A stretch of DNA of 64,000 nt from Lentzea albida. Lineage in GTDB: Bacteria > Actinomycetota > Actinomycetes > Mycobacteriales > Pseudonocardiaceae. Of this stretch, positions 5,363 to 64,000 are shown piece by piece; the stretch's first letter is position 1; every line of letters starts with the position of its first letter. The notes beneath the pieces are model-generated. The model saw only the letters and a list, made by a program, of their open reading frames with translations. It was not told where the DNA came from and searched no databases. The position numbers and the translations under genes were made by a program. The stretch spans positions 124,001 to 188,000 of the forward strand of contig NZ_FOFV01000007.1 in the NCBI RefSeq assembly GCF_900111005.1, read 5' to 3'.

Positions 5363-6419
5363 CGAACACCTCCGCGAGGTCGATCGAGCCGTACTCCTGG
5401 TGCTCGAACATCACGGCCGGGATGCCGTGCCGCCCCAGGGCCTCCTTCTGCGCCGGGAAGTCCCACGGCGGGGCGTCGTCGTTGCGGCGGACGTACGACA
5501 CGACCAGCTCGGCCGCGCAGTCGACGGCCGCGCGCGCCGTGTGCGCGGCCCGGTCGGCGATGGAGCCGCGGGCGGCGGTGGGGCCGTTGTACTGGTAGCG
5601 CTCGACGAGCGCCGCGAGCGTGGGTTCGCCCACGAGCCGCGCGGCGAGGAGGTCTCCCCAGTCGTGGTCCTCGCCGACCACGACGCACCCGGCCTCCTCC
5701 AGCGACCGGTACACCTCCGGGTTGTCGTGCGAGCTGCCCGTGACGAAGATCCGGCGTCCGGTGTGGACGTCCAAATCGGACTTGAGCAGCTGCCGCAGCA
5801 ACCGGTTGTGCTCCACCACGGGGAGGACGGCACCGAACGCCGCCAGCGCCTGCACCCCGGTCAGCCGGAGGTCGCGGCGCAGGGCGGACACCGCGCGCCA
5901 CAGGTCGCGACGGGCGTCGTGCGCCATGATCGCCGACGCGATCCGCGGCCCGGTCAGCCGCGTCCCGGTCCACCGCTCCAGCACGGCGACCAGTTCGGCG
6001 AAGCGGCCCTCGACGTACCGCGTGGTCGTCCAGTGCGGCAGGTGCAGCACGTCGACCAGGTACGTCTCCGGCAGGCCGAGGCCGGGTTCGAGCCGCCGCA
6101 GCTCCCGCACGGCGTAGAACAACCGCAGCGAGGCCTCGCAGTCGCGCGACACCAGCAGCCGGTCGAGCCTGCCGTACTCCCCCGTGAGCAGGCGGGTGAG
6201 CACCGACGAGGCGGCCGGGTCGACGCCGCGGCCCAGGTAGGTCTCGCCCTCGGTGACGTCCGTGCCCGGCCGGCCCGCCAGGCGCACGGGAAGCGCGCCG
6301 GCGGCGGTCACGAGCTCCACCGGGACGTCCTGGCCCACGCAGCCGATCACGAGCCCGTCCGCCGCGACCGGGTACCGCCGCTCGTAGTGGCCGACCAGTT
6401 GTTCCAGAGGGGTGGCCAC
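5355..6419 (-). CDS. 2-hydroxyacyl-CoA dehydratase-like protein (first subunit)
   Basis: A 354-residue relative of HgdA/BcrB, partner of the next gene downstream. I chose the GTG at 6419, 2 bp after the CoA-transferase stop; the frame stays open further upstream but only over the neighbouring gene. Family features are the Rossmann-like N-terminus, the block DRLLVSRDCEASLRLFYAVRELRR (here shown in parts: the Cys94 segment aligns with the usual CD motif), and a C-terminal block ending GIPAVMFEHQEYGSIDL. Cys94 is the only cysteine at an expected cluster position. The first expected ligand falls in PAASSVLTR and the third in RRNDDAPPW. No ATP-dependent activase (HgdC type) is present nearby. Reaction unknown. 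Confidence 0.75.
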   Translation of the reverse strand: MATPLEQLVGHYERRYPVAADGLVIGCVGQDVPVELVTAAGALPVRLAGRPGTDVTEGETYLGRGVDPAASSVLTRLLTGEYGRLDRLLVSRDCEASLRLFYAVRELRRLEPGLGLPETYLVDVLHLPHWTTTRYVEGRFAELVAVLERWTGTRLTGPRIASAIMAHDARRDLWRAVSALRRDLRLTGVQALAAFGAVLPVVEHNRLLRQLLKSDLDVHTGRRIFVTGSSHDNPEVYRSLEEAGCVVVGEDHDWGDLLAARLVGEPTLAALVERYQYNGPTAARGSIADRAAHTARAAVDCAAELVVSYVRRNDDAPPWDFPAQKEALGRHGIPAVMFEHQEYGSIDLAEVFVG

Positions 6420-6421
6420 GG

Positions 6422-7654
6422 TCAGATCACCCGATCCGCGCGCAGGGCGGCGAGGCGATCCCCGTCGTAGCCGAGGAGGTCGCCGTACACCAGGTCGTTG
6501 TGCTCGCCCAGGGCCGGTGCCGGCCGGTCGAAGCCGACGGCCGAACCGGAGAACACGATCGGCACCCCGGTGGCGGAGATGTCCGCGGTGGCGCCGTGGG
6601 ACGGGTGGGTCAGCGCGACCACCTCGTCGCGCGCGCGGACGAGCGGATCCCGGACGGCCTCCGCGGGCTCCCGCACCTCGGCGGCCGGCACGCCGTTCTC
6701 GACCAGCGACGCCACCGCCGCGACGCGGTCCTGTCCCGCCGCCCACGTCCCGATCAGCTCGTGCAGCGCGGTCGCGTTCGCCACCCTCGCGTCCCTGGTG
6801 GCGAACCGGGGATCCGCCGCGAGTCCCGGTTCCCCCATGGCCTGGAACACCCCGGCCGCGAACCGGTCGGTCGGGCCGCAGAGCGCGAGCCACCCGTCCT
6901 TGGCCTCGAACAAGCCGAACGGCGCGAGTCTCGGCACAAGAGAACCCGTGCGTTGAGCCAGGCCGACAGCCGCGTACGCGTCGAAGGGCTCACACGCGAC
7001 GAGTGACGTCAACGCGCCGAGCATCGACACGTCCACGTGCTGCCCCACGCCGGTCCGGTCGGCCTGCACGAGCGCGGCGAGGGTGCCGATGACCGCGAAC
7101 AGCGGCGCCACCAGGTCACCGACCGGCAGGCCGTTGCGGACCGGGTCGTCGCCCTCCTGCCCGGCGGTGCCCATGATCCCGGACAGCGCCTGCACGATCG
7201 TGTCCATGGCCTTCGCCGGCCCGCCCTGGGCACCGAAGCCGCTGATCGACGTGTAGACCAGCTTCGGGTTCACGGCCAGCATCGCCGCGGGGTCGATGCC
7301 GAGCCGGGTGGTGACGCCCGCGCTGTAGTTCTCCACCAGCACGTCCGCGTGCCCCACCAGGCCGGCGAGGACCTCGCGCCCCCGCGGGTGCTTGAGGTCG
7401 AGCGTCACGCTCTCCTTGTTGCGGCCGCGCAACAGCATGGACACCGACATGTCGTCGTCGTGGACCCGCCCGAGCCCGAGCCCGTCGCGACCGAGGTACG
7501 GCGCGTTGCCGCGCGAGGAGTCCCCGCCCGTCCGCGGGTTCTCCACCTTGATCACGCGCGCGCCCAGTCCCCCGAGCAGCAGGGTGGCGTAGGGCCCGGC
7601 CAGGGCCGTCGTGAGATCGACGACCGTCCGCCCGGCGAGTGGTTGCTCGGTCAC
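6422..7654 (-). CDS. Family III CoA-transferase (CaiB/BaiF type)
   Basis: A 410-residue CoA-transferase that would move CoA between acyl-CoA and a free acid, activating or recycling the substrate of the two dehydratase-like proteins downstream. It opens with the family's nucleotide/CoA motif (VVDLTTALAGPYAT, RVIKVENP). It contains the block VYTSISGFG and an Asp in AMDTIVQALSG that matches the catalytic Asp of formyl-CoA transferase-like enzymes. The GTG at 7654 has a near-perfect GGAGGT 6 nt upstream; an in-frame ATG at 7702 lacks one. It is the first gene of a three-gene operon and is divergent from the paaX-like gene, which is therefore its likely regulator. Confidence 0.88.
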   Translation of the reverse strand: MTEQPLAGRTVVDLTTALAGPYATLLLGGLGARVIKVENPRTGGDSSRGNAPYLGRDGLGLGRVHDDDMSVSMLLRGRNKESVTLDLKHPRGREVLAGLVGHADVLVENYSAGVTTRLGIDPAAMLAVNPKLVYTSISGFGAQGGPAKAMDTIVQALSGIMGTAGQEGDDPVRNGLPVGDLVAPLFAVIGTLAALVQADRTGVGQHVDVSMLGALTSLVACEPFDAYAAVGLAQRTGSLVPRLAPFGLFEAKDGWLALCGPTDRFAAGVFQAMGEPGLAADPRFATRDARVANATALHELIGTWAAGQDRVAAVASLVENGVPAAEVREPAEAVRDPLVRARDEVVALTHPSHGATADISATGVPIVFSGSAVGFDRPAPALGEHNDLVYGDLLGYDGDRLAALRADRVI

Positions 7655-48473: not shown

Positions 48474-51400
48474 GTGGGACGCTCTGACGACAGCGGGTCC
48501 AGAGAGGACCGTCCCGGGCTCACCGACGTGTTCGCCGAGGGCGGGGAGATCGGGCCCGACCTGGCCGCCGTGGACTGGGCGGCCACCCCGCTCGGACCGC
48601 CGGACGGCTGGCCGCAGAGCCTGCAGACCGCCGTGAGCATCCTGCTGTCGTCCCGCTTCTCCATGTGGATGGCGTGGGGACCGGAGCTGACCTTCTTCTG
48701 CAACGACGCCTATCGGCTCAACACGCTCGCCCGCAAGTACCCCTGGGCGCTCGGCCGGCCCGCCGAACAGGTGTGGGCGGAGATCTGGGACGACATCGGG
48801 CCGAGGGTCGACACCGTGCTCACCACCGGACGGGCGACCTGGGACGAGGCCCTGCTGCTGTTCGTCGAACGCTCCGGTTACAGCGAGGAGAGCTACCACA
48901 CGTTCTCCTACAGCCCGCTGCGCGACGAGAGCGGCGCGGTGGCGGGGATGTTGTGCGTGGTCAGCGAGGAGACCGAACGCGTCATCGGCGAACGGCGGAT
49001 GGCGACGTTGCGCGACCTCGGCTCCGACCCCAGCGTGGCGCGCGAGGAGCAGGAGGTCCTGTCCTACGCCTGCGCCCAGCTCGACGGCAACCAGCGGGAC
49101 CTCCCGTTCACCCTCACCTACCTCTTCGACGACGGGCACGCGCGCCTGGCCTGCGCCACCGGGACCATGGCGGAGCACCCCGCTGCTCCCCCGCTCATCC
49201 CGCTCGCGGACGAGTCGCTGTGGCCGGTCGCGGCGGCGCGGCGGGGCGAGTCCTCCGTGGTCGACCTGGAGGGGATCACCGGACTGCCGGGCGGGGCCTG
49301 GGAACGGCCGCCCACCAGCGCTCTCGTGGTGCCGTTGCAGCGGCCGGGCGGCGTGCCGCACGGCTTCCTGGTGGCGGGCCTGAACCGGCACCGCCCGCTC
49401 GACGACGGCTACCGCGGTTTCGTCGAACTGGTCGCGGGCCACCTCGCCGCCGGCGTGGCGGGGGCGCGGGACTTCCGCGCCCAGCAACGACGTGCGGAGG
49501 AGCTCGCCGAGCTCGACCGCGCCAAGACCGCGTTCTTCTCCAACATCAGCCACGAGTTCCGGACCCCGCTGACGCTCATCATGGGCCCGGTGCAGGACCT
49601 GCGGGACCGGCTCTCCCAGGGCGACCCGCAGGCGGGCCAGGAGCTCGAGGTCATCCACCGCAACGGGTTGCGGCTCGGCAAGCTCGTCAACACGCTGCTC
49701 GACTTCTCCCGGCTCGAGGCGGGCCGCATGCAGGCGGTGTTCCAACCCGTCGACCTCGCCGCGGCCACCGCCGAGCTCGCCAGCGTGTTCCGCTCGGCCG
49801 TCGAGAGGGCGGGACTGGACTTCGAGATCGACTGCCCGCCCCTGCCCCGGCCGGTGCACGTCGACCTCGGCCTGTGGGAGAAGGTCGTGCTCAACCTGCT
49901 GAGCAACGCCCTCAAGTTCACGATCGACGGTTCGGTGCGCGTGTCCGTCCGGGAGGCGGGCGGCAAGGCGGTCGTGACGGTCGCCGACACCGGGGTCGGG
50001 GTGGCGCCCAACGAGATCAGCCGGCTGTTCGAGCGCTTCCACCGCATCGAGCACACCTGGTCGCGGTCGCAGGAGGGCAGCGGCATCGGGCTCGCGCTCG
50101 TGCAGGAGCTCGTGCACCTGCACGGCGGCACCATCCGCGCCGACAGCACCGTGGACGAGGGCACCACCTTCACCGTCGAGCTGCCGTTCGGCACCGAGCA
50201 CCTGCCCGCCGGGACGCTGTCGCAGGAGACCGGCCTCACGGCGGTGTCCGACATCTCCACGCCGTACGTGCAGGAGGCACTGCGCTGGCTGCCGGACGCG
50301 AGTGCCGCCGCCGAGGACCTGCTGCCGGGCACCGCCGCGGCCACCGCGCCGGAGGTCCCGGCCACGGTGCTGGTGGCCGACGACAACGCGGACATGAGGG
50401 AGTACCTGACCCGGTTGCTGCTCAGGGCGGGGTACGACGTGCGCGCCGTCAACGACGGCGTGGCCGCGCTGGAGTCGGCTCGTGCCCACCCGCCGGACCT
50501 CGTCGTCAGCGACGTGATGATGCCGCGGATGGACGGCCTGTCGCTGGTCACCGCCCTGCGTGCCGACCAGCGCACGATGGCGGTCCCGGTGCTGCTGCTG
50601 TCCGCCCGCGCGGGGCAGGAGGCCTCGGGCGAAGGCCTGCGGGCGGGCGCGGACGACTACCTCGTCAAGCCGTTCGCGGCGGCCGACCTGCTCGCGAGGG
50701 TGCGGGCGAACGTCGACCTGGCCCGGTTGCGCGGACGGCACGCCCGCTGGCGCGACGCGTTGATCGACTCGCTGCAGGAGGCGTTCTTCGTCTGCGACGA
50801 GGACGGCGCCGTCGTGGAGGTCAACGCGGCGTTCACCGAGATCCTCGGCTACGGGCCGGAGGGCCTGCCGTACGCCGTGCCGCACCCGTGGTGGCCCGAC
50901 GAGCGCACGGACGCGGAGGCGCGCAGGCAGTTCGCGGAGGCGCTCGAGGCGAAGGCGGGCCGCGACCAGCGCGGGCGGACCCTGCCCGTCACCCACCGCG
51001 ACGGCAGGCGGGTGTGGATCAGCGCCCTCATGAACCCCGCCCGCGACCCCGACACCGGCCGGACGGTGACCGTCGGCACGTTCCGCGACGCCACCGCGGA
51101 ACACCACGTCCGCAGGCGAGAGACCGCGCTGGCCGAGATGAGCATGCGGCTGTCCCGCGCGACCAGCGCCGCCGACGCGCTGACCGGTGCGCTGGAGCAG
51201 CTCCAGGCCCTGTGGCGGATCGAGCAGGTCCTGGCCGTCGTCTTCGGCAGGGACTCGGCTCCCCGCGTCAGCGGCGCCGATCTCGGCTGGGCCGACCTGC
51301 CCGGGCCACAACGCGACATCCTCGCCGCGCTGACCGAGCACTCGGCGCTGATGCCGGTGTTCACCGGGGACGGCAGCATCGCCGTCACCGTCGAGCACCC

Positions 51401-52679
51401 GGACGGGCCGATGGTGCTCCTGCTGCGCCTGGACCCCGGCCACCAGTTCACGGAGCAGGACGAACTGCTGCTCTCGCTGCTCGCGGGTCACCTCACGCAG
51501 GGCCTGGCCCGCGCCCGCCAGATCGACCAGCAACGGGAGACGGCGCTCGCGTTGCAGCGCGCGATCCTCGGCCCGTCGCACCTGCCCGGCGGATTCGCCG
51601 TGCGCTACGAACCGGCCGCACGCCCGTTGGAGGTCGGCGGCGACTGGTACGACACCTTCGCCCTGCCGGACGGGCGGATCGGCATCGTCGTCGGGGACTG
51701 CGTGGGTCGCGGGCTCTCCGCCGCCGCGGTGATGGGCCAGCTGCGCAGCGCGTGCCGGGCCCTGCTCCTGCAGGAGATCGGACCGGCCCGCGCGCTGATG
51801 GCCCTCGACCAGTTCGCGGCTGGTGTGCCCGGTGCCCTGTGCACCACGGTGTTCTGCGGCGTCCTCGACCCCGACACCGGACACCTCGTCTACTCGAGCG
51901 CCGGGCACCCGCCCGCGATCCTCGCGCTGGTGGACGGCACCACCGAACTGCTCGAAGGCGGACGCTCCATCCCACTGGCGGTGAAGCTCGACGTGTTGCG
52001 CACGGAGGCGGAGTGCGTGCTGCCGCCCCGGTCCACGTTGCTCACCTACACCGACGGGCTCGTCGAACGCCGCAGCAGCTCGCTGAACGAGGGCATCGAC
52101 AAGGCCGCGCACGCCGTCCAGGAGGGCCGCGTGAACGGCCTGGAGGACCTGGCCGGCCAGATCATGGCGGCCCTCGCCCCGTCAGGTGGCTACGACGACG
52201 ACGTCGCCCTGCTGCTGTACCGGCACCCCGCGCCGCTGGAGGTCACGTTCCCGGCGGAACCCGGCGAGCTGCAGAGCGCCCGCGGCAAGCTGCGGACGTG
52301 GCTGCGCCAGTGCGGCTTCTCCACCGGCCACGCCCAGCGCGTCCTCGTCGCCGTCGGCGAGGCGTCCGCGAACGCCATCGAGCACGCGTACCGGGACGCG
52401 GCGCGTCAGGCCGTCCAGCTGCGCCTGGAGACCGTCGGCGACAGCGACCTGCACGTGACCGTGGTGGACACCGGCACGTGGAAGACGCCGAACTCCCCGC
52501 CGGACGCGAGTCGCGGCCGCGGTACGACGATCATGCACACCATGATGGACGAAGTCGCCATCCTCCCCGACCCGACCGGCACCACCGTGACGATGCAGGT
52601 GAAGATTCCCCATGACGCCACTGACCCTGACCACCACCACCGACCCGCAGGGCAGGCCCGTCCTCAAGGTGGCGGGTGA
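48474..52679 (+). CDS. Hybrid histidine kinase / SpoIIE phosphatase / RsbW-like fusion
   Basis: A 1401-residue cytoplasmic signalling protein. In order it has a PAS-like N-terminus (about 30-150), GAF (about 170-330), HisKA with H360 in SHEFRTP, HATPase (about 470-580; NLLSNALKF, GIGLAL), a receiver (about 625-745; D680 in DVMMPRMDG), PAS (about 755-875), GAF (about 885-1010), an SpoIIE/PP2C phosphatase (GGDWYD at about 1055), and a final RsbW-type HATPase (GEASANAIEHAYR). So a sensor phosphorelay, an RsbU-type phosphatase and an anti-sigma kinase are in one chain. GTG at 48474 with GAGGAGAGG. The C-terminal 22 residues overlap the STAS gene in another frame. Confidence 0.92.
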   Translation: MGRSDDSGSREDRPGLTDVFAEGGEIGPDLAAVDWAATPLGPPDGWPQSLQTAVSILLSSRFSMWMAWGPELTFFCNDAYRLNTLARKYPWALGRPAEQVWAEIWDDIGPRVDTVLTTGRATWDEALLLFVERSGYSEESYHTFSYSPLRDESGAVAGMLCVVSEETERVIGERRMATLRDLGSDPSVAREEQEVLSYACAQLDGNQRDLPFTLTYLFDDGHARLACATGTMAEHPAAPPLIPLADESLWPVAAARRGESSVVDLEGITGLPGGAWERPPTSALVVPLQRPGGVPHGFLVAGLNRHRPLDDGYRGFVELVAGHLAAGVAGARDFRAQQRRAEELAELDRAKTAFFSNISHEFRTPLTLIMGPVQDLRDRLSQGDPQAGQELEVIHRNGLRLGKLVNTLLDFSRLEAGRMQAVFQPVDLAAATAELASVFRSAVERAGLDFEIDCPPLPRPVHVDLGLWEKVVLNLLSNALKFTIDGSVRVSVREAGGKAVVTVADTGVGVAPNEISRLFERFHRIEHTWSRSQEGSGIGLALVQELVHLHGGTIRADSTVDEGTTFTVELPFGTEHLPAGTLSQETGLTAVSDISTPYVQEALRWLPDASAAAEDLLPGTAAATAPEVPATVLVADDNADMREYLTRLLLRAGYDVRAVNDGVAALESARAHPPDLVVSDVMMPRMDGLSLVTALRADQRTMAVPVLLLSARAGQEASGEGLRAGADDYLVKPFAAADLLARVRANVDLARLRGRHARWRDALIDSLQEAFFVCDEDGAVVEVNAAFTEILGYGPEGLPYAVPHPWWPDERTDAEARRQFAEALEAKAGRDQRGRTLPVTHRDGRRVWISALMNPARDPDTGRTVTVGTFRDATAEHHVRRRETALAEMSMRLSRATSAADALTGALEQLQALWRIEQVLAVVFGRDSAPRVSGADLGWADLPGPQRDILAALTEHSALMPVFTGDGSIAVTVEHPDGPMVLLLRLDPGHQFTEQDELLLSLLAGHLTQGLARARQIDQQRETALALQRAILGPSHLPGGFAVRYEPAARPLEVGGDWYDTFALPDGRIGIVVGDCVGRGLSAAAVMGQLRSACRALLLQEIGPARALMALDQFAAGVPGALCTTVFCGVLDPDTGHLVYSSAGHPPAILALVDGTTELLEGGRSIPLAVKLDVLRTEAECVLPPRSTLLTYTDGLVERRSSSLNEGIDKAAHAVQEGRVNGLEDLAGQIMAALAPSGGYDDDVALLLYRHPAPLEVTFPAEPGELQSARGKLRTWLRQCGFSTGHAQRVLVAVGEASANAIEHAYRDAARQAVQLRLETVGDSDLHVTVVDTGTWKTPNSPPDASRGRGTTIMHTMMDEVAILPDPTGTTVTMQVKIPHDATDPDHHHRPAGQARPQGGG

Positions 52680-58834: not shown

Positions 58835-59731
58835 ATGCGAGTTCTCCTTGCCGTGCTCACCCTGGCGGCCTCCGTCCTGGCCGCCCCCGGCGCGTTAGCC
58901 GCGCCACCGGACTACGGCCTGCCCGGCGCGTACCCGGTGGCGTACAGCGATGTCACCGCCGTCGCGGGCGGCAGGTCCGTGCCCGCCCGCGTCCACTACC
59001 CCGCCACGGCCGCCGGGGCGAACCAGCCGGTGGCGACCGGCAGGTTCCCCGCGATCGCGTTCGGCCACGGCTTCTTCCAGGCCACGTCGAAGTACACGAG
59101 CACCAGCAACCACCTGGCGTCGTGGGGCTTCGTCGTCGTGGTGCCGACCACGCAGGGCGGCCTCAGCCCGAACCACGGCACGTTCGCCGACGACCTCAAC
59201 ACCGGCCTGACCTGGCTGGTCGCCCAGGACACCACGACGGGCTCGCGGTTCCGCGACCACATCACCACCACGTCGCTCGGCGTCGCGGGCCACTCCATGG
59301 GCGGCGGCGCGGCGGTTCTCGCGGCCGCCCGCAACCCCCGGATCACCGCGGTGTCCACCTATGCGGCCGCGGAGACGACCCCGTCGGCCAAGGCGGCGGC
59401 CGCCACCCTCGCGGCGCCGGCCCAGTTCCTGGCCGGGTCGCAGGACACCATCACACCGGTCGCCGACCACCAGCGGCCGATGTTCGCCGCGAAACCGCCG
59501 CCGAGGCAGCTGCGCACCATCACCGGCGGGTTCCACTGCGGCTTCATGGACTCCTCAGGCCTGTTCTGCGACAACGGTTCCATCACCCGCACCGCCCAGC
59601 TCACCGCGGCGAAGCGGGTCATGACGTCGTGGTTCCGCCACCACCTCGGCAACGACCCGGCCGCGCGTGACTTCGTGTGGGGGCAGCCCGCCCGCACCGA
59701 TCCGGCCGTCACGTTCGAGGGCACCGAGTAG
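58835..59731 (+). CDS. Secreted alpha/beta hydrolase (dienelactone/PET-hydrolase-like)
   Basis: A 298-residue exported hydrolase. It has a signal peptide (VLTLAASVLAAPGALA), the nucleophile Ser in AGHSMGGGA, Asp in LAGSQDTITP, and His in TGGFHCGFMD. Paired Cys in the C-terminus (H-C-G-F and LFCDNG) may form a disulfide. The fold is that of cutinase-like/triacylglycerol-lipase or chlorophyllase-type enzymes. The ATG follows GAGGAG. It ends in a strong bidirectional terminator. Confidence 0.85.
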   Translation: MRVLLAVLTLAASVLAAPGALAAPPDYGLPGAYPVAYSDVTAVAGGRSVPARVHYPATAAGANQPVATGRFPAIAFGHGFFQATSKYTSTSNHLASWGFVVVVPTTQGGLSPNHGTFADDLNTGLTWLVAQDTTTGSRFRDHITTTSLGVAGHSMGGGAAVLAAARNPRITAVSTYAAAETTPSAKAAAATLAAPAQFLAGSQDTITPVADHQRPMFAAKPPPRQLRTITGGFHCGFMDSSGLFCDNGSITRTAQLTAAKRVMTSWFRHHLGNDPAARDFVWGQPARTDPAVTFEGTE

Positions 59732-59743
59732 CGCATGACGAGC

Positions 59744-59777
59744 GGCTGTCTCCTGTGGACACACACAGGAGACAGCC
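59744..59777. terminator. Bidirectional terminator hairpin
   Basis: GGCTGTCTCCTGTG (59744-59757) and CACAGGAGACAGCC (59764-59777) form a perfect 14-bp stem with a 6-nt loop. It serves the convergent hydrolase and TPR-sigma genes. Confidence 0.85.
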
Positions 59778-59782
59778 CGTTC

Positions 59783-61792
59783 CTACTCCTCGAGACGCGG
59801 TTCGACGCCGGCGCCGAGGTCCTTCCTCAACCGCGCCAGCGCCTGGCGGTTCAGCTCCGAGACCTGCGTCGCGGACATGCCGAGTGCTTTGGCGGTATCG
59901 CGGATGCTGAAGCCCTCCAGGTACCGGAACAGGACGACCGCCCGCTGTTTCGGGGGCAACGCGGCGATCAGCTCCGCGACGCCGGTGCGTTCACCGCCCC
60001 TGGACGCGATCTCGCGCAGTTCGGCCAGGTGGGTCTCTTCCAGCTCGGACAACCCCATGAGCTGTGCTTTCGACGGGCCGGGAAGCTCCCGCCCCGGTCT
60101 GTCCTGTTCGAAGAGGTCCAGGGTCGCCGCGACGTCCCGCGCCCAGAGCCTGCTGGTGTGCTCGGAGCGATGTCCCCCCGCGAGGACGCGACCGATGTGC
60201 CCGACCGCGTGCTCCTCGAACCCTTCGCCGCCCCGCGCGGGGTCGTAGCTCCCGATCGCCTCCGCCAGGCCGTACACGCCGGCCTGCGCGAGGTCGGTGA
60301 GTTTCACGTTCGCGAGCACACCACCCACGAATCGTCCGAGGACTCTCGCGACGACCGGCAGGTAGTGCGACACGAGTTCGCTGTGCGAGTGGCGGCTGCG
60401 CGTCGCGGCGTACCTGCGCCACACCGACGCGACCTTCGGATCGACCTCGGGCGTCCTCGCCGGCTTGGCGTCGAGCAGGTCGCGTGCCTGTTCGAAGGAG
60501 ACGTACTCGTCGCCGAACAACGCGTCCGTGGCGACCCGTTGCAAGGTGCGGAGACCGCCACCACCACGATCGTCCGCGGTTTCGCTCCACTGACGGCACA
60601 ACTGCAGCTCGTGCCGCAGGACGCGCGTGGTCGCGTGCCCGGCTCCGAGAACGGTCTCGGCACGCTGGCAGGCGGTCTCCAGGACCTCCAGGGCCGCGGT
60701 GGGCTCGACGTGCGCGTCCGCGGACCGGGCGAGCTCGAACGACGCGGTCGCCAGGTTCGCGAACGCGGACATCGTGTGGGGGTGGTTCTCCCCCAGCTCC
60801 CGCGAGGTGGTCTCGGCGACCTCCCGCATCACGACGAGGGCGGACGACGCCGCCGTCACCGACTTCGCCAGCCGGGCGCACTCGAACCGCGCCGACGCCT
60901 CGTTCCCCGCGGCGACGAGCGCCAGGGGGTGCAGGCGGCCCAGCACCTGGCGGATCCTGCCGGCCACGGAGGAGAGGAAGGACAGGGCCTGGCCGGCGTC
61001 CCCGGAAGAACGGGACGCGCGGGCGAGGGCGAAGTCCGCCGTCGACAGGTTCAGCCGGACGGCCAGGGTGTCCAGGTGGTCGGCCCCGAGCGAGGAGGCG
61101 ATCCGCTGCCTGAGGAGTTCCAGCTGCTCGGCGAGTTCCTCGGCGCGCTCGGTCGCTCCCTGGGCCATCGCCAGGTCGAACTGCGTCGCGACGCTGGTCG
61201 CCGCGGCCACCAATGCCGTCGGCGCGGACGACCCGGCCGAGGCCCGGTAGGCGGACTCGGCCGCACCGAGGCGGGACATCGCGCGCAGCAACGAGAACCT
61301 GTCCGCGTGCAGCCGCGACTCCGCCGTGTGCACCGCCGCCGCGGCGACCTCCGCGACGTCCGCGGAGATGCCGGCTCGATCGGCCTGGGCGAGCCACCGC
61401 CGTGTCGCGCCCACGTCACCGCCGGCGAACGCGACCGACGCGAGGTTCACGCGGATCGTCTCGGCCACCGGGGAGCCGGCCCGGCCGGCGTCGATGTGCA
61501 CGTCGTCGAGAACGGCCCGCGCCGCGGCGAAGTCGCCGCTGCGGGCGGCGACGACACCCAGTTGGTTGCGCAGCCGGAAAGCCTCGTCCGATCCGGCGTC
61601 CAGCACGTGGATCGACGCCGCCAGCAGGCGTTCGGCCTGGTCGCGTCGCAAGCTCGTCGTGACGCGGAGGAGCAGGTCGAGGTGCGTCCTCATCGAGGCC
61701 GCCGTCACGTGCTCGACCGCGGCACGTTCGCGCTCGGGGCTCCAGCCGTGCTCGGTGAGCGCCCGCAGGGCCTCCTCCCAGCGGGTGCTCAC
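59783..61792 (-). CDS. TPR protein with sigma-70-like C-terminus
   Basis: A 669-residue fusion. The first two thirds are helical TPR-like repeats (about 40-430; repeated motifs such as LVAAGNEASARFECARLA and HTMSAFANLATASFELARS). The C-terminal ~200 residues resemble a sigma-70/sigma-28 factor: region 2 in KLTDLAQAGVYGLAEAIGSYDPARG and region 4 in ALPPKQRAVVLFRYLEGFSIRDTAKALGMSATQVSELNRQALARLRKDL. I know no standard family with this layout. The GTG (61792) overlaps the protease stop by 4 bp (GTGA), so it is third in an operon. It could be a sigma factor whose activity is gated by the TPR part and the protease. Confidence 0.82.
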   Translation of the reverse strand: MSTRWEEALRALTEHGWSPERERAAVEHVTAASMRTHLDLLLRVTTSLRRDQAERLLAASIHVLDAGSDEAFRLRNQLGVVAARSGDFAAARAVLDDVHIDAGRAGSPVAETIRVNLASVAFAGGDVGATRRWLAQADRAGISADVAEVAAAAVHTAESRLHADRFSLLRAMSRLGAAESAYRASAGSSAPTALVAAATSVATQFDLAMAQGATERAEELAEQLELLRQRIASSLGADHLDTLAVRLNLSTADFALARASRSSGDAGQALSFLSSVAGRIRQVLGRLHPLALVAAGNEASARFECARLAKSVTAASSALVVMREVAETTSRELGENHPHTMSAFANLATASFELARSADAHVEPTAALEVLETACQRAETVLGAGHATTRVLRHELQLCRQWSETADDRGGGGLRTLQRVATDALFGDEYVSFEQARDLLDAKPARTPEVDPKVASVWRRYAATRSRHSHSELVSHYLPVVARVLGRFVGGVLANVKLTDLAQAGVYGLAEAIGSYDPARGGEGFEEHAVGHIGRVLAGGHRSEHTSRLWARDVAATLDLFEQDRPGRELPGPSKAQLMGLSELEETHLAELREIASRGGERTGVAELIAALPPKQRAVVLFRYLEGFSIRDTAKALGMSATQVSELNRQALARLRKDLGAGVEPRLEE

Positions 61793-62547
61793 GCGGACCC
61801 CTTCGAGAGGAACTGCTCGACCATCGCCCTGGCGATCTCCAGCTGGATCGTGTTCACCGCGCTCGGCCCGACCAGACCGTGGGCCTCCCAGTCGGCGAGT
61901 TGTTCGAGCGCCGAGGTGTGGCGGCGGACGTCCGTCGCGGGGTCGGCCGGGGCGTGGTCGTCGAAGTAGTCGGCGAAAGCCGCGAACGCCTCGCGCATCG
62001 TCACGGCCCACAACACGTTCGTCGCACCCAGCTTCTCGTCGAAGCGGTTCTGGTACTGCTCCTGGAGCACGCCCGCGAGCGTCGCCTCCTCACCGACCCG
62101 TTCGACGGCGCTGCCGGAATACCCCTCGTAGTTGCCGAGAACGACCTCGGTGCTCAACTGCAGCGCTTCCAGCTGCGTACCGCTGACACAGTCGTACTTC
62201 ACGTTCGGCTCGTCGACGGCGCCGTTGAGGTGCGGATCGGACGGCGACGGCCGGTTGGGGGTGCGCCACCTGTCGTTCTTCTTGCAGACCTGTGGGACCG
62301 GCGGCCGCACGAACGACCTGCCCACCAACCTGATCAACGCCAGATCGACGTCCTCGCGCCTTTCGCAGACGACACCCGGTGCCTCGGTCCCGTCCGCGTG
62401 CACCAGCACCACGTCGCTCTCGGACTCGGCCAGCGGTCTCAGGCAGTGGTCCGCGGTCATGACGAACCGGCGTGTGACGTAGAAGCCCGCGCCGAGGACC
62501 CCTCCGTCGGGCCGCCGCGCCTCGACCCAGTATTCCGTCCGGTACAT
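61789..62547 (-). CDS. Trypsin-like serine protease
   Basis: A 252-residue cytoplasmic protease (no signal peptide or anchor). The triad is legible: His34 in TADHC, Asp68 in DVDLALIRL, Ser144 in GYSGSAV. After the protease domain (to about residue 190) a C-terminal helical part of about 60 residues follows. It is 7 bp behind the trypco1-like gene and overlaps the TPR-sigma gene. Protease beside trypco1 is a known recurring pair; likely targets are the TPR-sigma protein itself or a cellular trigger protein, but that is inference. Confidence 0.85.
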   Translation of the reverse strand: MYRTEYWVEARRPDGGVLGAGFYVTRRFVMTADHCLRPLAESESDVVLVHADGTEAPGVVCERREDVDLALIRLVGRSFVRPPVPQVCKKNDRWRTPNRPSPSDPHLNGAVDEPNVKYDCVSGTQLEALQLSTEVVLGNYEGYSGSAVERVGEEATLAGVLQEQYQNRFDEKLGATNVLWAVTMREAFAAFADYFDDHAPADPATDVRRHTSALEQLADWEAHGLVGPSAVNTIQLEIARAMVEQFLSKGSA

Positions 62548-62554
62548 GGTCGGG

Positions 62555-62869
62555 TCAGGCGCGCTCGATCGTCATCGTCACCTCGAGCGACGCCTCCGCG
62601 GACGCCTTCGTGATGATGACGCCCGCCTCCGCCGAGACCGTGAGCCCGAAGGTCGCCTCGACGCTCGACACGCGCCAGCCGTCCTTCTCCTGCGCGGTGG
62701 CCATCGACGCGCGCACGATGTCGGCGGCCGTCGCGATGCCCGCTTCGATCTCGGCCCTGCGTTCCTGAAGGGCCGACGCCGTCCGCTCGGAACTGGAGAT
62801 CTGCCGTCCGCCTCGGTTGCCGAACCGGACGGTCTCGATCCGGACGACCGGCTCGGAGAATTCACTCAT
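62555..62869 (-). CDS. Trypsin-co-occurring domain 1 (trypco1)-like small protein
   Basis: A 104-residue protein that looks like the small trypco1 family, named for its co-occurrence with trypsin-like proteases. Features are RIETVRFGNRG at the N-terminus, a central segment with RRAEIEAGIATAADIVRASMATAQEK, and an Ala-rich C-terminal strand region (VEATFGLTVSAEAGVIITKASAEASLEVTMTIERA). I place the start at the ATG at 62869; an ATG 55 codons upstream runs through a non-conserved region. It is first in the protease/TPR-sigma operon. Confidence 0.72.
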   Translation of the reverse strand: MSEFSEPVVRIETVRFGNRGGRQISSSERTASALQERRAEIEAGIATAADIVRASMATAQEKDGWRVSSVEATFGLTVSAEAGVIITKASAEASLEVTMTIERA

Positions 62870-63173
62870 GTCTGCCGTGTCGGGCAGCCTGAGAAAGACG
62901 TTACCGATTTCCACGGAAGTGCAACTATTCCAGACGCGCAAGAAAGTAATTCCGGAAAGCGTGGAGAATCGCCGACGAATGCCGCTGGCTACTTCTTCGT
63001 GCTGCCGCTGCCGGCTGCGGGCGCTCGCGCACACTGCGCGTCAGCTCGGCGAAGCCGGGGCACCGGGCGAGGCCGATCACGTGGTCCCGCAGTTGCGCGG
63101 CCTGCTCCTCGCCGGGCCTGGACGAGCCCCACCCACCTGCTGGTCATCGATGTCCGTGAAGGAGTGACGCGCG
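62870..63173. other. 304-bp gap: promoter region of trypco1 operon plus possible gene remnant
   Basis: It separates the trypco1-like gene from the downstream end of the DNA-alkylation-repair gene. The part next to trypco1 (62880-62980) is AT-richer and is the likely promoter. On the minus strand a frame is open from 63143 to a stop at 62925 without ATG; it reads like the tail of a helical protein (RPGEEQAAQLRDH, GLARCPGFAELTRSVRERP) and may be a gene fragment. Confidence 0.35.
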
Positions 63174-64000
63174 TCAGGCGCCGTCCACCAGGACGAACTC
63201 GGCGCGGCCGGACCGCACCCCGTTGACCTGCAACTCCACGGCGTGCTCACCGGGGTGGTAGCGACGGGTGGTGATCACCCGGAACGAGTGCTCGCGGCTC
63301 AGCTCGTAGGTCTCCCCCGGTTCGACGGTCCGGGTCGTGAGCTTGAACGTCTTGCCGGTGAGCGTGCCGTTGGCCTTGCGGTGGTGGACCACGTAGTCGA
63401 TCACCAGCCGGGCGGGCTCCCGGTCGAGGTTGCGCACGGACCCGGTGAAGGACAGCGCCTCTCCGATCGTCACGGTGTCGGTGGCGAGCACCGGGCCGAC
63501 CACGTCGAGGCGCGCCGAGGTGAAGCCCAGCAACGCCAGCGCTCCCGGATGTCCTTGTTTCACAAGGGTTCGCAGGCCGTGGCGCACCACGCGCGCGGTG
63601 TTGCCGTCGGGTGCGGCCGTCCAGGCGGTCGCGGTCGCGACGACCAGGTCCGGGTGCCGGCGGCTGATGTCGTTGAGGTGGTTGGCGACCGACCGCCGGA
63701 CGTACTCGCTGTCGTCGCGGTACAGCGCGTCGAGGATCGGCAGGGTGGCCTCGGGGACGGAGAGGACGCCGGGCACGCGGACCGCCCAGGGCAGCAGCGG
63801 CCGCGTGCCCTCCGACGCGAGCCGGCGCACGTGCTCGTCCTCCGACCGCGTCCAGGCAAGGATCGTGCCGAGCGCCCGTTCCAGGTCGTGGTTCAGCAGG
63901 GAACGCAGCGCGAACTCGGCGCTCAGCTGCGGTGTCAGCTCCGCCAGCAGGGCGAGCGCGTCGTCGAACGCGTCGGTGCCGCCCTCGCTGATCGCCTTGG
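63174..64000 (-). CDS. DNA alkylation repair protein, HEAT-repeat type (5' end cut by window edge)
   Basis: The C-terminal ~275 codons of an AlkD-like/COG4335 protein. The gene runs off the window at 64000. HEAT-repeat helices are visible (WTRSEDEHVRRLASEGTRPLLPWA, ILDALYRDDSEYVRRSVANHLNDI, VRHGLRTLVKQG), and the HVRRLASEG block is the family's best mark. The last ~100 residues are a beta-sandwich tail (LTTRTVEPGETYELSREHSFRV) often attached in actinomycetes. These proteins bind alkylated DNA and some excise 3- or 7-alkylpurines. Confidence 0.88.
   Translation of the reverse strand, partial: KAISEGGTDAFDDALALLAELTPQLSAEFALRSLLNHDLERALGTILAWTRSEDEHVRRLASEGTRPLLPWAVRVPGVLSVPEATLPILDALYRDDSEYVRRSVANHLNDISRRHPDLVVATATAWTAAPDGNTARVVRHGLRTLVKQGHPGALALLGFTSARLDVVGPVLATDTVTIGEALSFTGSVRNLDREPARLVIDYVVHHRKANGTLTGKTFKLTTRTVEPGETYELSREHSFRVITTRRYHPGEHAVELQVNGVRSGRAEFVLVDGA

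Follow-up and report, generated by a model that had tools for sequence, protein, structure and literature searches.

What is a sigma-factor-like domain doing at the end of a protein that is encoded next to a trypsin-like protease? The question is raised by an operon of Lentzea albida in a 64,000-nucleotide stretch of contig NZ_FOFV01000007.1 (the window), where three packed genes on the minus strand (62869-59783) encode, in this order, a small Trypco1 protein, a trypsin-like protease and a protein in which an arm of tetratricopeptide repeats (TPR) carries a sigma-like tail. A first-pass annotation proposed that the protease may cleave or free the TPR-sigma protein on a trigger sensed by the Trypco1-like protein and so turn proteolysis into a transcriptional response, an interpretation that, taken as a whole, is partly supported. 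We found that the trio is conserved and that sigma is one of many exchangeable tails (here called X) fused to the TPR arm of the cassette's third protein. Our preferred, still tentative, reading is that X may be an integrated host-protein bait that controls the protease (probability roughly 0.42).

Tails carried by related cassettes

A profile of five protease sequences was searched at a threshold of 1e-20 against 343 genomes of a Streptomyces-like genus, so labelled solely from an AfsR model match. Matches were obtained in 26 genomes, as 33 rows representing 32 loci (two rows are the halves of one gene, in G1032). When all 32 loci (L067, L106-L125 and L173-L183) were read, a gene for a TPR arm with a tail was found next to the protease in 29, and 19 of the 29 also contain Trypco1; the remaining three (L180, L182 and L183) are other trypsin systems. 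L181, in which the protease is followed by a broken TPR arm and then by an intact TPR-X gene (5411-7111), was counted as TPR-X. The conservation of the three genes together, on which the first-pass annotation had staked its proposal, was borne out by these 19 loci of another genus and by two further loci, L014 and L026, described below.

The tails of 22 cassettes (L067, L106-L125, and L068 from a class-level sample) were classified. Seven were AfsR-type (BTAD and NB-ARC domains by Pfam in six; L107 through its 94% identity to L106), three were short SARP proteins and three were membrane hydrolase-like (a weak Pfam match in L067 only; L121 and L124 by homology through L184). SigB/SigF sigma, NsdA, DUF742, CHAT (135.7 bits) and HAD (50.0 bits) tails were found once each, and four tails had no match. 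The tail of L106 matched AfsR with 1528 bits (cut-off 1430), that of L118 the NsdA family with 427 bits (cut-off 75) and that of L117, which sits beside Trypco1 and protease, SigB/SigF/SigG with 308.7 bits (cut-off 234). Among the other survey loci, L176 carries a full ribosomal protein S1 (947.6 bits, cut-off 691), L177 an S1 recognized by eye and cut by the contig end, and L173 and L174 decayed S1 tails (151.6 and 170.9 bits, respectively, against the same cut-off of 691). A tail of about 220 amino acids (aa) is common to L123, L175, L178, L179 and L181 (39-42% identical to that of L123); it gave no Pfam match in L123 and L178, and it occurs both with an intact protease (L123) and with proteases lacking the catalytic triad. 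Beyond the survey set, X included DUF742, WhiG, Jag/EloR and Crp.

Tails are exchanged between close relatives: a full AfsR and a short SARP occur with proteases that are 90% identical, and AfsR and sigma with proteases that are 69% identical. Judged by this variability, the tail looks more like the specificity part than Trypco1 does, in which the first-pass annotation had seen the possible sensor of the trigger. The link between sigma factor and Trypco system that had been proposed for the window holds in one respect: the second, independent sigma fusion of L117 shows that sigma is a real passenger of the Trypco1-protease cassette.

Several tails closely resemble genes that stand alone in the same genome. 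The SigF-type tail of G1069 shares 97% identity with a sigma gene that stands alone elsewhere in the genome (6 differences across 250 codons, synonymous divergence dS 0.064), with a ratio of nonsynonymous to synonymous divergence (dN/dS) of 0.17, and the NsdA tail of G1112 is 73% identical to a stand-alone NsdA (dN/dS 0.20). AfsR tails are 68-83% identical to the AfsR of their own genome, and a second, stand-alone AfsR-like gene, judged by frame size, was present in nine of nine genomes searched. In a tree of the seven AfsR tails and nine host copies, from which the short SARP tails (L108, L112 and L115) were left out, the tails did not form one clade and the starred branches forced at least five label changes. 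As few changes were needed in 423 of 500 label shuffles, which means that the tails are scattered among the host copies and nothing more. By identity, the own-genome AfsR was the nearest of the nine host copies for five of the seven tails. The tails of G883 and G1042 paired with their own-genome AfsR with high support, and in both pairs the X branch was about three times longer than the host branch (0.46 v 0.17 and 0.48 v 0.16, respectively). These comparisons show that tails were exchanged, that host genes were captured and that AfsR was acquired more than once; instead of repeated capture, the AfsR pattern could also reflect gene conversion between tail and host copy.

The sigma-derived tail of the window protein

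The coordinates and close packing of the window genes hold as first described: Trypco1 and protease are 7 bp apart, and the protease stop and TPR-sigma start overlap by 4 bp (Table 1). The small protein matched PF19493 (Trypco1) with 53.8 bits (cut-off 24.6) and NF041216 with 47.6 bits (cut-off 23), which with its trypsin-like peptidase neighbour places it in PF19493, as the first-pass annotation had suggested; it is 53-57% identical to the Trypco1 proteins of L014, L026, L067 and L068. The second gene matched PF13365 (Trypsin_2) with 30.6 bits against a cut-off of 27.6, and the residues His34, Asp68 and Ser144, already recognized as an intact triad, were invariant in five aligned proteases (that of the window and four relatives). 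By profile and triad, it is a predicted trypsin-like serine protease. An export signal was not seen in it by eye, and it matched Avs1b and LmuA weakly (20.4 and 18.9 bits, respectively).

Table 1. Features of the window operon, with the TPR-S1 genes of four survey loci (window positions unless a locus is named).
Feature	Position	Strand	Remarks
Trypco1 protein, 104 aa, operon gene 1	62555..62869	-	ATG at 62869, stop at 62555
Trypsin-like protease, 252 aa	61789..62547	-	PF13365; triad His34-Asp68-Ser144 intact
TPR arm and sigma-like tail, 669 aa	59783..61792	-	Pfam, NCBIfam and PDB chain matches; AlphaFold2 model
TPR arm, residues 1-408	60569..61792	-	helical solenoid; pLDDT blocks 75-98 to residue 400
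Flexible linker, residues 409-451	60440..60568	-	pLDDT <50 at 408-431 and 442-448
Sigma regions 1.2-2.2, residues 452-537	60182..60439	-	best kept part of the tail; pLDDT blocks 53-83
Eroded stretch at WhiG regions 2.3-3, residues 538-602	59987..60181	-	gaps relative to host WhiG; pLDDT <50 at 541-547 and 563-602
Sigma region 4, residues 603-660	59813..59986	-	PF08281, PF04545; pLDDT blocks 60-83
TPR-S1 genes	L176:4709-7561, L177:4713-6290, L173:3208-5724, L174:4604-7141	+, +, -, +	S1 intact or decayed

The third protein had been described as TPR repeats with sigma regions 2 and 4. Region 4 was found above cut-off by Sigma70_r4_2 (PF08281, 44.7 bits) and Sigma70_r4 (PF04545, 40.0 bits). Sigma70_r2 remained under its cut-off (21.2 bits against 24); region 2 was nonetheless recovered by the FliA/WhiG models of NCBIfam and by PDB chains, the solved FliA and WhiG chains matching both regions. 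TPR_12 was also slightly short of its cut-off (27.7 bits against 30.1), but residues 1-408 form a helical solenoid, mostly of high confidence, in an AlphaFold2 model built from ten aligned sequences (mean predicted local distance difference test, pLDDT, 77.5). A Foldseek search of this model against the PDB returned, as sigma matches, Streptomyces WhiG structures 6pfv and 6pfj (E about 1e-3; 8e-4 for 6pfv; TM-score 0.38-0.39 on the target), together with many TPR proteins, including MalT domain III. The arm also matched the TPR arm of L174 (BLASTP within a set of 29 TPR-X proteins and bridging loci; 32% over 309 aa, E 8e-20). This search did better than a profile-profile comparison of arms, which was rejected; the window arm scored 155 against the Streptomyces-like arms and 124 and 189 against two control sets, and was thus not told apart from generic TPR proteins.

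Among named families the C-terminus came closest to WhiG NF004935 (67.7 bits, cut-off 343), followed by TIGR02479 (60.7 bits, cut-off 189.6); by these scores it lies outside the curated FliA/WhiG family. A Sigma70_r3 match was not obtained with Pfam, and in the alignment with host WhiG region 3 is absent, regions 2.3-2.4 are eroded and the RIRGAILDDLRSQDW stretch, which in WhiG has a role in promoter binding, is gone, losses that the first-pass annotation had not noticed. Region 3 and this stretch are also missing from the tails of P0002 and P0003, two relatives of the window protein. In the sigma tree these three tails were joined (96/97) and adjoined WhiG (85/87, not starred). The window tail is 29% identical to the WhiG of its own genome (L166); its reading frame is open, with a third-position GC fraction (GC3) of 0.88. 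Window X is, on this evidence, an old, decayed derivative of WhiG. With region 3 gone, and with it the stretch of region 2 that melts the promoter, it is probably not a working sigma factor, and the transcriptional response foreseen for the window protein is not supported.

Identity among the three tails was 52-57% in regions 1.2-2.2 (residues 448-528), 20-31% in the remnant of regions 2.3-3 (529-598) and 25-43% in region 4, and that of the arms was 55-76%. If the window tail is under selection at all, the target would be the part that faces the polymerase or a surface recognized by some other factor. Sigma regions 1.2-2.2 face core polymerase, and their better preservation fits a reading in which X merely positions the protease at the usual place of the host protein (RNA polymerase, ribosome or promoters), there to watch or cut the machinery. 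S1, sigma, AfsR and Jag are, moreover, all information-processing proteins. However, the core-binding motif of WhiG, DLIQSG, is only partly kept (DLAQAG in the window, TLGHMG in P0002 and DVAKSG in P0003), and decay of X after capture would not be expected if binding to a site had to persist. We consider such tethering improbable.

Protease, Trypco1 and the role of the tail

An intact protease triad was found in 22 of 23 TPR-X loci with Trypco1 (L067, L068, L050, L074, the window, L106-L114 and L116-L124) and in one of ten without it (L115). The sole exception among the 23, L124, is split. A more sensitive search for Trypco1 in the ten loci found none (best E 0.03). Nine of the ten, those with S1 included, have another upstream partner, which is either a protein of 371-486 aa with hydrophobic C-terminal segments (five loci) or one of 165-194 aa (four loci). 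The S1-tail loci combine a trypsin-fold protein without catalytic triad and the 371-486-aa upstream gene. These counts tie Trypco1 to an intact protease and show that the TPR-X principle can do without one. On either of the two readings weighed next, Trypco1 gains a testable role, since it goes with the intact-triad protease and the triad is lost in nine of the ten loci in which it was not detected.

The first of these is close to the original proposal: a trigger leads the protease to cut the flexible linker, and free X, as a regulator, switches on sporulation or secondary metabolism in a population-level response to infection. Regulators do fill many X slots (7 AfsR-type, 3 short SARP, 1 SigF-type and 1 NsdA among the 22 cassettes), both the DNA-binding domain and the P-loop are retained in AfsR tails, the SigF tail has a dN/dS of 0.17, and the linker is flexible in the model. 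Streptomyces is reported to respond to phage infection with actinorhodin and other pigments and with early sporulation (PMC10276819), and development is reported to contain the spread of phage (PMC10117723); proteases of CRISPR systems that free sigma factors are known (PMC10028731 and PMC12751052). Against this, several kinds of tail (S1, Jag/EloR, HAD, CHAT and membrane-hydrolase-like) do not belong to the transcription regulators, and no common cut site was seen by eye in the linkers of 13 aligned arms of the Streptomyces-like set. Because the S1-locus protease lacks the triad, X cannot be its released product in those loci; with an exchangeable tail that may be S1, and loss of the triad in the S1 relatives, freeing of the tail by the protease cannot be the common principle. 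For the window itself, the loss of region 3 and of the promoter-melting stretch put a working sigma output in second place. Release of an output is, in our view, unlikely, but it is the main rival of the reading that we prefer.

We tentatively favour the bait instead. Any factor, from a phage or elsewhere, that acts on a host protein by binding, modification or cleavage would also strike X, and the TPR arm would relay the strike to the protease, which Trypco1 would keep ready; the freed protease would then cut cell proteins and halt the infection. In the window, the bait would imitate WhiG or else the side that a sigma factor turns to RNA polymerase. Several observations favour this reading. 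X copies proteins that the cell also has alone (SigF-type, NsdA and AfsR), the X of P0004 is nearly identical to the WhiG of the window's genome, AfsR tails were acquired more than once, and X branches are longer in the two own-genome pairs. Window X has lost sigma features yet kept an open frame. S1 on its own would be an odd output, whereas phage T4 proteins target S1: RIII of T4 binds it, and its ADP-ribosylation by T4 is reported (PMC9409239). In the S1 loci, as set out above, X is not a released product. The intact triad that goes with Trypco1 and a cassette on a predicted viral contig were also counted in favour. A bait would explain the capture of housekeeping proteins, their loss of function, their repeated acquisition and the subtypes without an active protease. 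In its broadest and equally tentative form, this reading would give actinobacteria an immune device built on integrated decoys. A Trypco1-trypsin module would be read out through a TPR arm, and the arm would capture intact copies of host proteins that phages attack (AfsR, sigma factors, NsdA, S1 and Jag/EloR), let them decay and recapture them.

Other observations weigh against a bait. The CHAT, HAD and membrane-hydrolase-like tails look like effectors. The dN/dS values of the recent SigF and the older NsdA tail are equally expected of working regulators, as is the domain retention of AfsR tails, in which the DNA-binding domain is the best preserved (its divergence is 0.81 times that between hosts, computed with the G899 host left out) and the P-loop GKTT is kept. 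The AfsR tails of G921 and G1103 (L111 and L113) are less accelerated, with branches of 0.13 and 0.18 against 0.10 and 0.08, respectively. S1 tails occur in the Trypco1-less subtype with other partners, whose mode may differ from that of the window subtype, and P0002-P0005 have no readable gene context. Finally, tblastn gave no match to the L106 protease in named plasmids or to the window protease in named phages.

Several known systems share parts of this arrangement. As in the VMAP-related conflict systems that pair Trypco1 or Trypco2 with trypsin (PMC7159879 and PMC10907252), a small Trypco1 gene adjoins a trypsin-like peptidase in the window; the third component differs, being a TPR arm with an exchangeable tail, and a Pfam scan of the trio and of ten flanking genes gave no vWA, MoxR, VMAP or NTPase (nucleoside triphosphatase) domain of the ternary systems. 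The word sigma does not occur in the main text of PMC7159879. A single immune unit also combines protease and sigma factor in the type III-E CRISPR system of Craspase, Csx30 and CASP-sigma (PMC10028731), but there the protease is of the CHAT type and RNA-guided, the extracytoplasmic function (ECF) sigma factor is a protein of its own, released when an inhibitor that is also a separate protein is cut, and there is no captured host copy. CalpL-CalpT-CalpS (PMC12751052) releases a sigma factor through an activated protease, much as the output reading proposes; this Lon-SAVED protease is triggered by cyclic tetra-adenylate (cA4), cuts an anti-sigma factor and is not of the Trypco kind. The window has a trypsin-type protease in a three-gene operon, with no cas family in the ten flanking genes, and so differs from both. 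In Hachiman and AVAST pairs, a trypsin-like protease is the antiphage switch and a proenzyme nuclease of the metallo-beta-lactamase (MBL) fold its substrate (PMC12799240). The neighbours of the window protease are Trypco1 and TPR-sigma, and an MBL-fold nuclease was not found in the trio or the ten flanking genes.

In the integrated decoys of plant and fungal nucleotide-binding leucine-rich repeat (NLR) receptors, a copy of the attacked host protein is fused to an immune adaptor. The host-copy fusion of the window cassette is alike; the cassette is bacterial, has no NLR, and its bait function is putative. A fused host-protein copy that is exchanged and repeatedly acquired, as in those receptors, is found in the relatives, whereas window X is an old WhiG derivative. 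The model of the MZA protein MzaA (NF041931), which is long, associated with antiphage defence and ends in a sigma-70 part, was matched through the sigma domain alone by L117 (117 bits, cut-off 800) and P0004 (78.7 bits). A description of a Trypco-TPR-X cassette was not found in the literature covered (titles and abstract openings, with subscription journals mostly outside coverage).

If the bait reading is true, the tails would name host proteins targeted by actinophages, in a list written in the genome; phage specificity could be moved by exchanging tails; and the cassette would be a bacterial counterpart of NLR integrated decoys. If the output reading is true, the cassette would be a candidate link from phage sensing to the sporulation and antibiotic response of Streptomyces, the sensor of which was not found named in the available parts of PMC10117723 and PMC10276819.

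Distribution, mobility and neighbouring genes

Relatives of the full-length third protein were sought in a database of 5.8 billion proteins, where the best 8000 word-sharing candidates were scored; few of these share the arm over its length. P0002 (58%) and P0003 (52%, Lentzea) are also TPR-sigma proteins. P0004 joins the arm's end to a complete WhiG-type sigma factor (Sigma70_r2, r3 and r4 all above cut-off; 98.4% identity with the window genome's WhiG, L166, across 256 aa) and comes from one short contig, so that an assembly chimera is possible. P0005 has the same arm with a KH-R3H end (Jag/EloR, NF041568, 79.8 bits, under the cut-off of 145). A linker motif, FGDEYVSFEQARDLLD in its window form, is common by eye in the alignment to P0002-P0005, L014 and L026, including relatives with other tails. 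The sigma end alone, used as a protein query, returned only itself among the best 8000 candidates scored.

When 60 relatives were scanned for the third protein at 1e-20, only the genome of the window matched. At 1e-15, 24 of 390 family genomes matched, 21 of them Saccharothrix. A single-protein scan of genome contigs gave no relative and an alignment-based scan gave 12 loci, 11 of which contain a TPR-Crp fusion (by Pfam in L018, by eye in ten). This TPR-Crp/Fnr fusion (L015-L025; for example L018:7530-9332, plus strand) recurs in Saccharothrix, and a Trypco1 or protease match was not found within 8 kb of it. In contrast, the gene order of the window trio recurs in Saccharothrix deserti (L014) and in L026 (G408), down to the 4-bp overlap, but there the tail of the TPR protein is a second TPR block.

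The Trypco1 alignment matched, at 1e-6, 11 of 390 family genomes and 6 of 394 class genomes (the window's own in both). Two class genomes, probably Streptomyces, hold the trio, with a membrane protein (alpha/beta-hydrolase, 17.1 bits, below cut-off) or DUF742 (136.5 bits) as the tail. Three of eight stretches read around Trypco1 matches contain the TPR-X trio (G793, G710 and G119, the last being L014). The other five do not: a protease was not found in L069 and L073, L070 gave a weak protease match only, and in L071 and L072 trypsin is fused to long proteins. In L071 (3018-8195), L072 (8431-12852), L182 and L183, an N-terminal trypsin-like domain stands on very long proteins that by eye resemble NTPase receptors, with Trypco1 nearby. 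In a phylum sample of 296 genomes, the protease matched only the window's genome at 1e-20.

These distributions also bear on whether the cassette is a domestic signalling device with no role in defence, its tails reflecting the ordinary shuffling of developmental regulators. AfsR, NsdA, WhiG and SigF are regulators of development or antibiotics, so several tails would suit such a device. The ten flanking window genes scanned with Pfam contain no defence family, other neighbours lying outside that scan, and the TPR-Crp fusion recurs without adjoining Trypco1 or protease. Sporadic presence (26 of 343 genomes; one of 60 relatives, the window's genome), exchange of tails among close proteases, repeated acquisition and a copy on a predicted viral contig look instead like an arms race or mobile cargo. 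We regard the domestic cassette as the least probable of the explanations considered.

A complete cassette of Trypco1, protease and TPR protein with membrane-hydrolase-like tail lies on L184 (3379-7761, plus strand), a predicted viral contig of IMG/VR, which was the one relative obtained in a scan of such contigs. An FtsK/TraB-type transfer ATPase-like gene, recognized by eye (L068:6226-7587, minus strand), adjoins the DUF742-tailed cassette and hints at an integrative element.

Around the window operon, a scan of 59500-63300 gave zero promoter-like sites and one terminator-like site, a number equal to that in shuffled sequences. A perfect 14-bp hairpin with a 6-base loop, missing from the list of the terminator scan, is present at 59744-59777, between the operon end and a convergent hydrolase gene, and is likely a terminator common to both. 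About 7 kb from the operon, a gene on the plus strand (48528-52679) encodes a 1383-aa hybrid regulator with GAF, histidine kinase, receiver, PAS, SpoIIE phosphatase and a second ATPase domain (HATPase_c_2), a possible candidate for controlling a sigma pathway.

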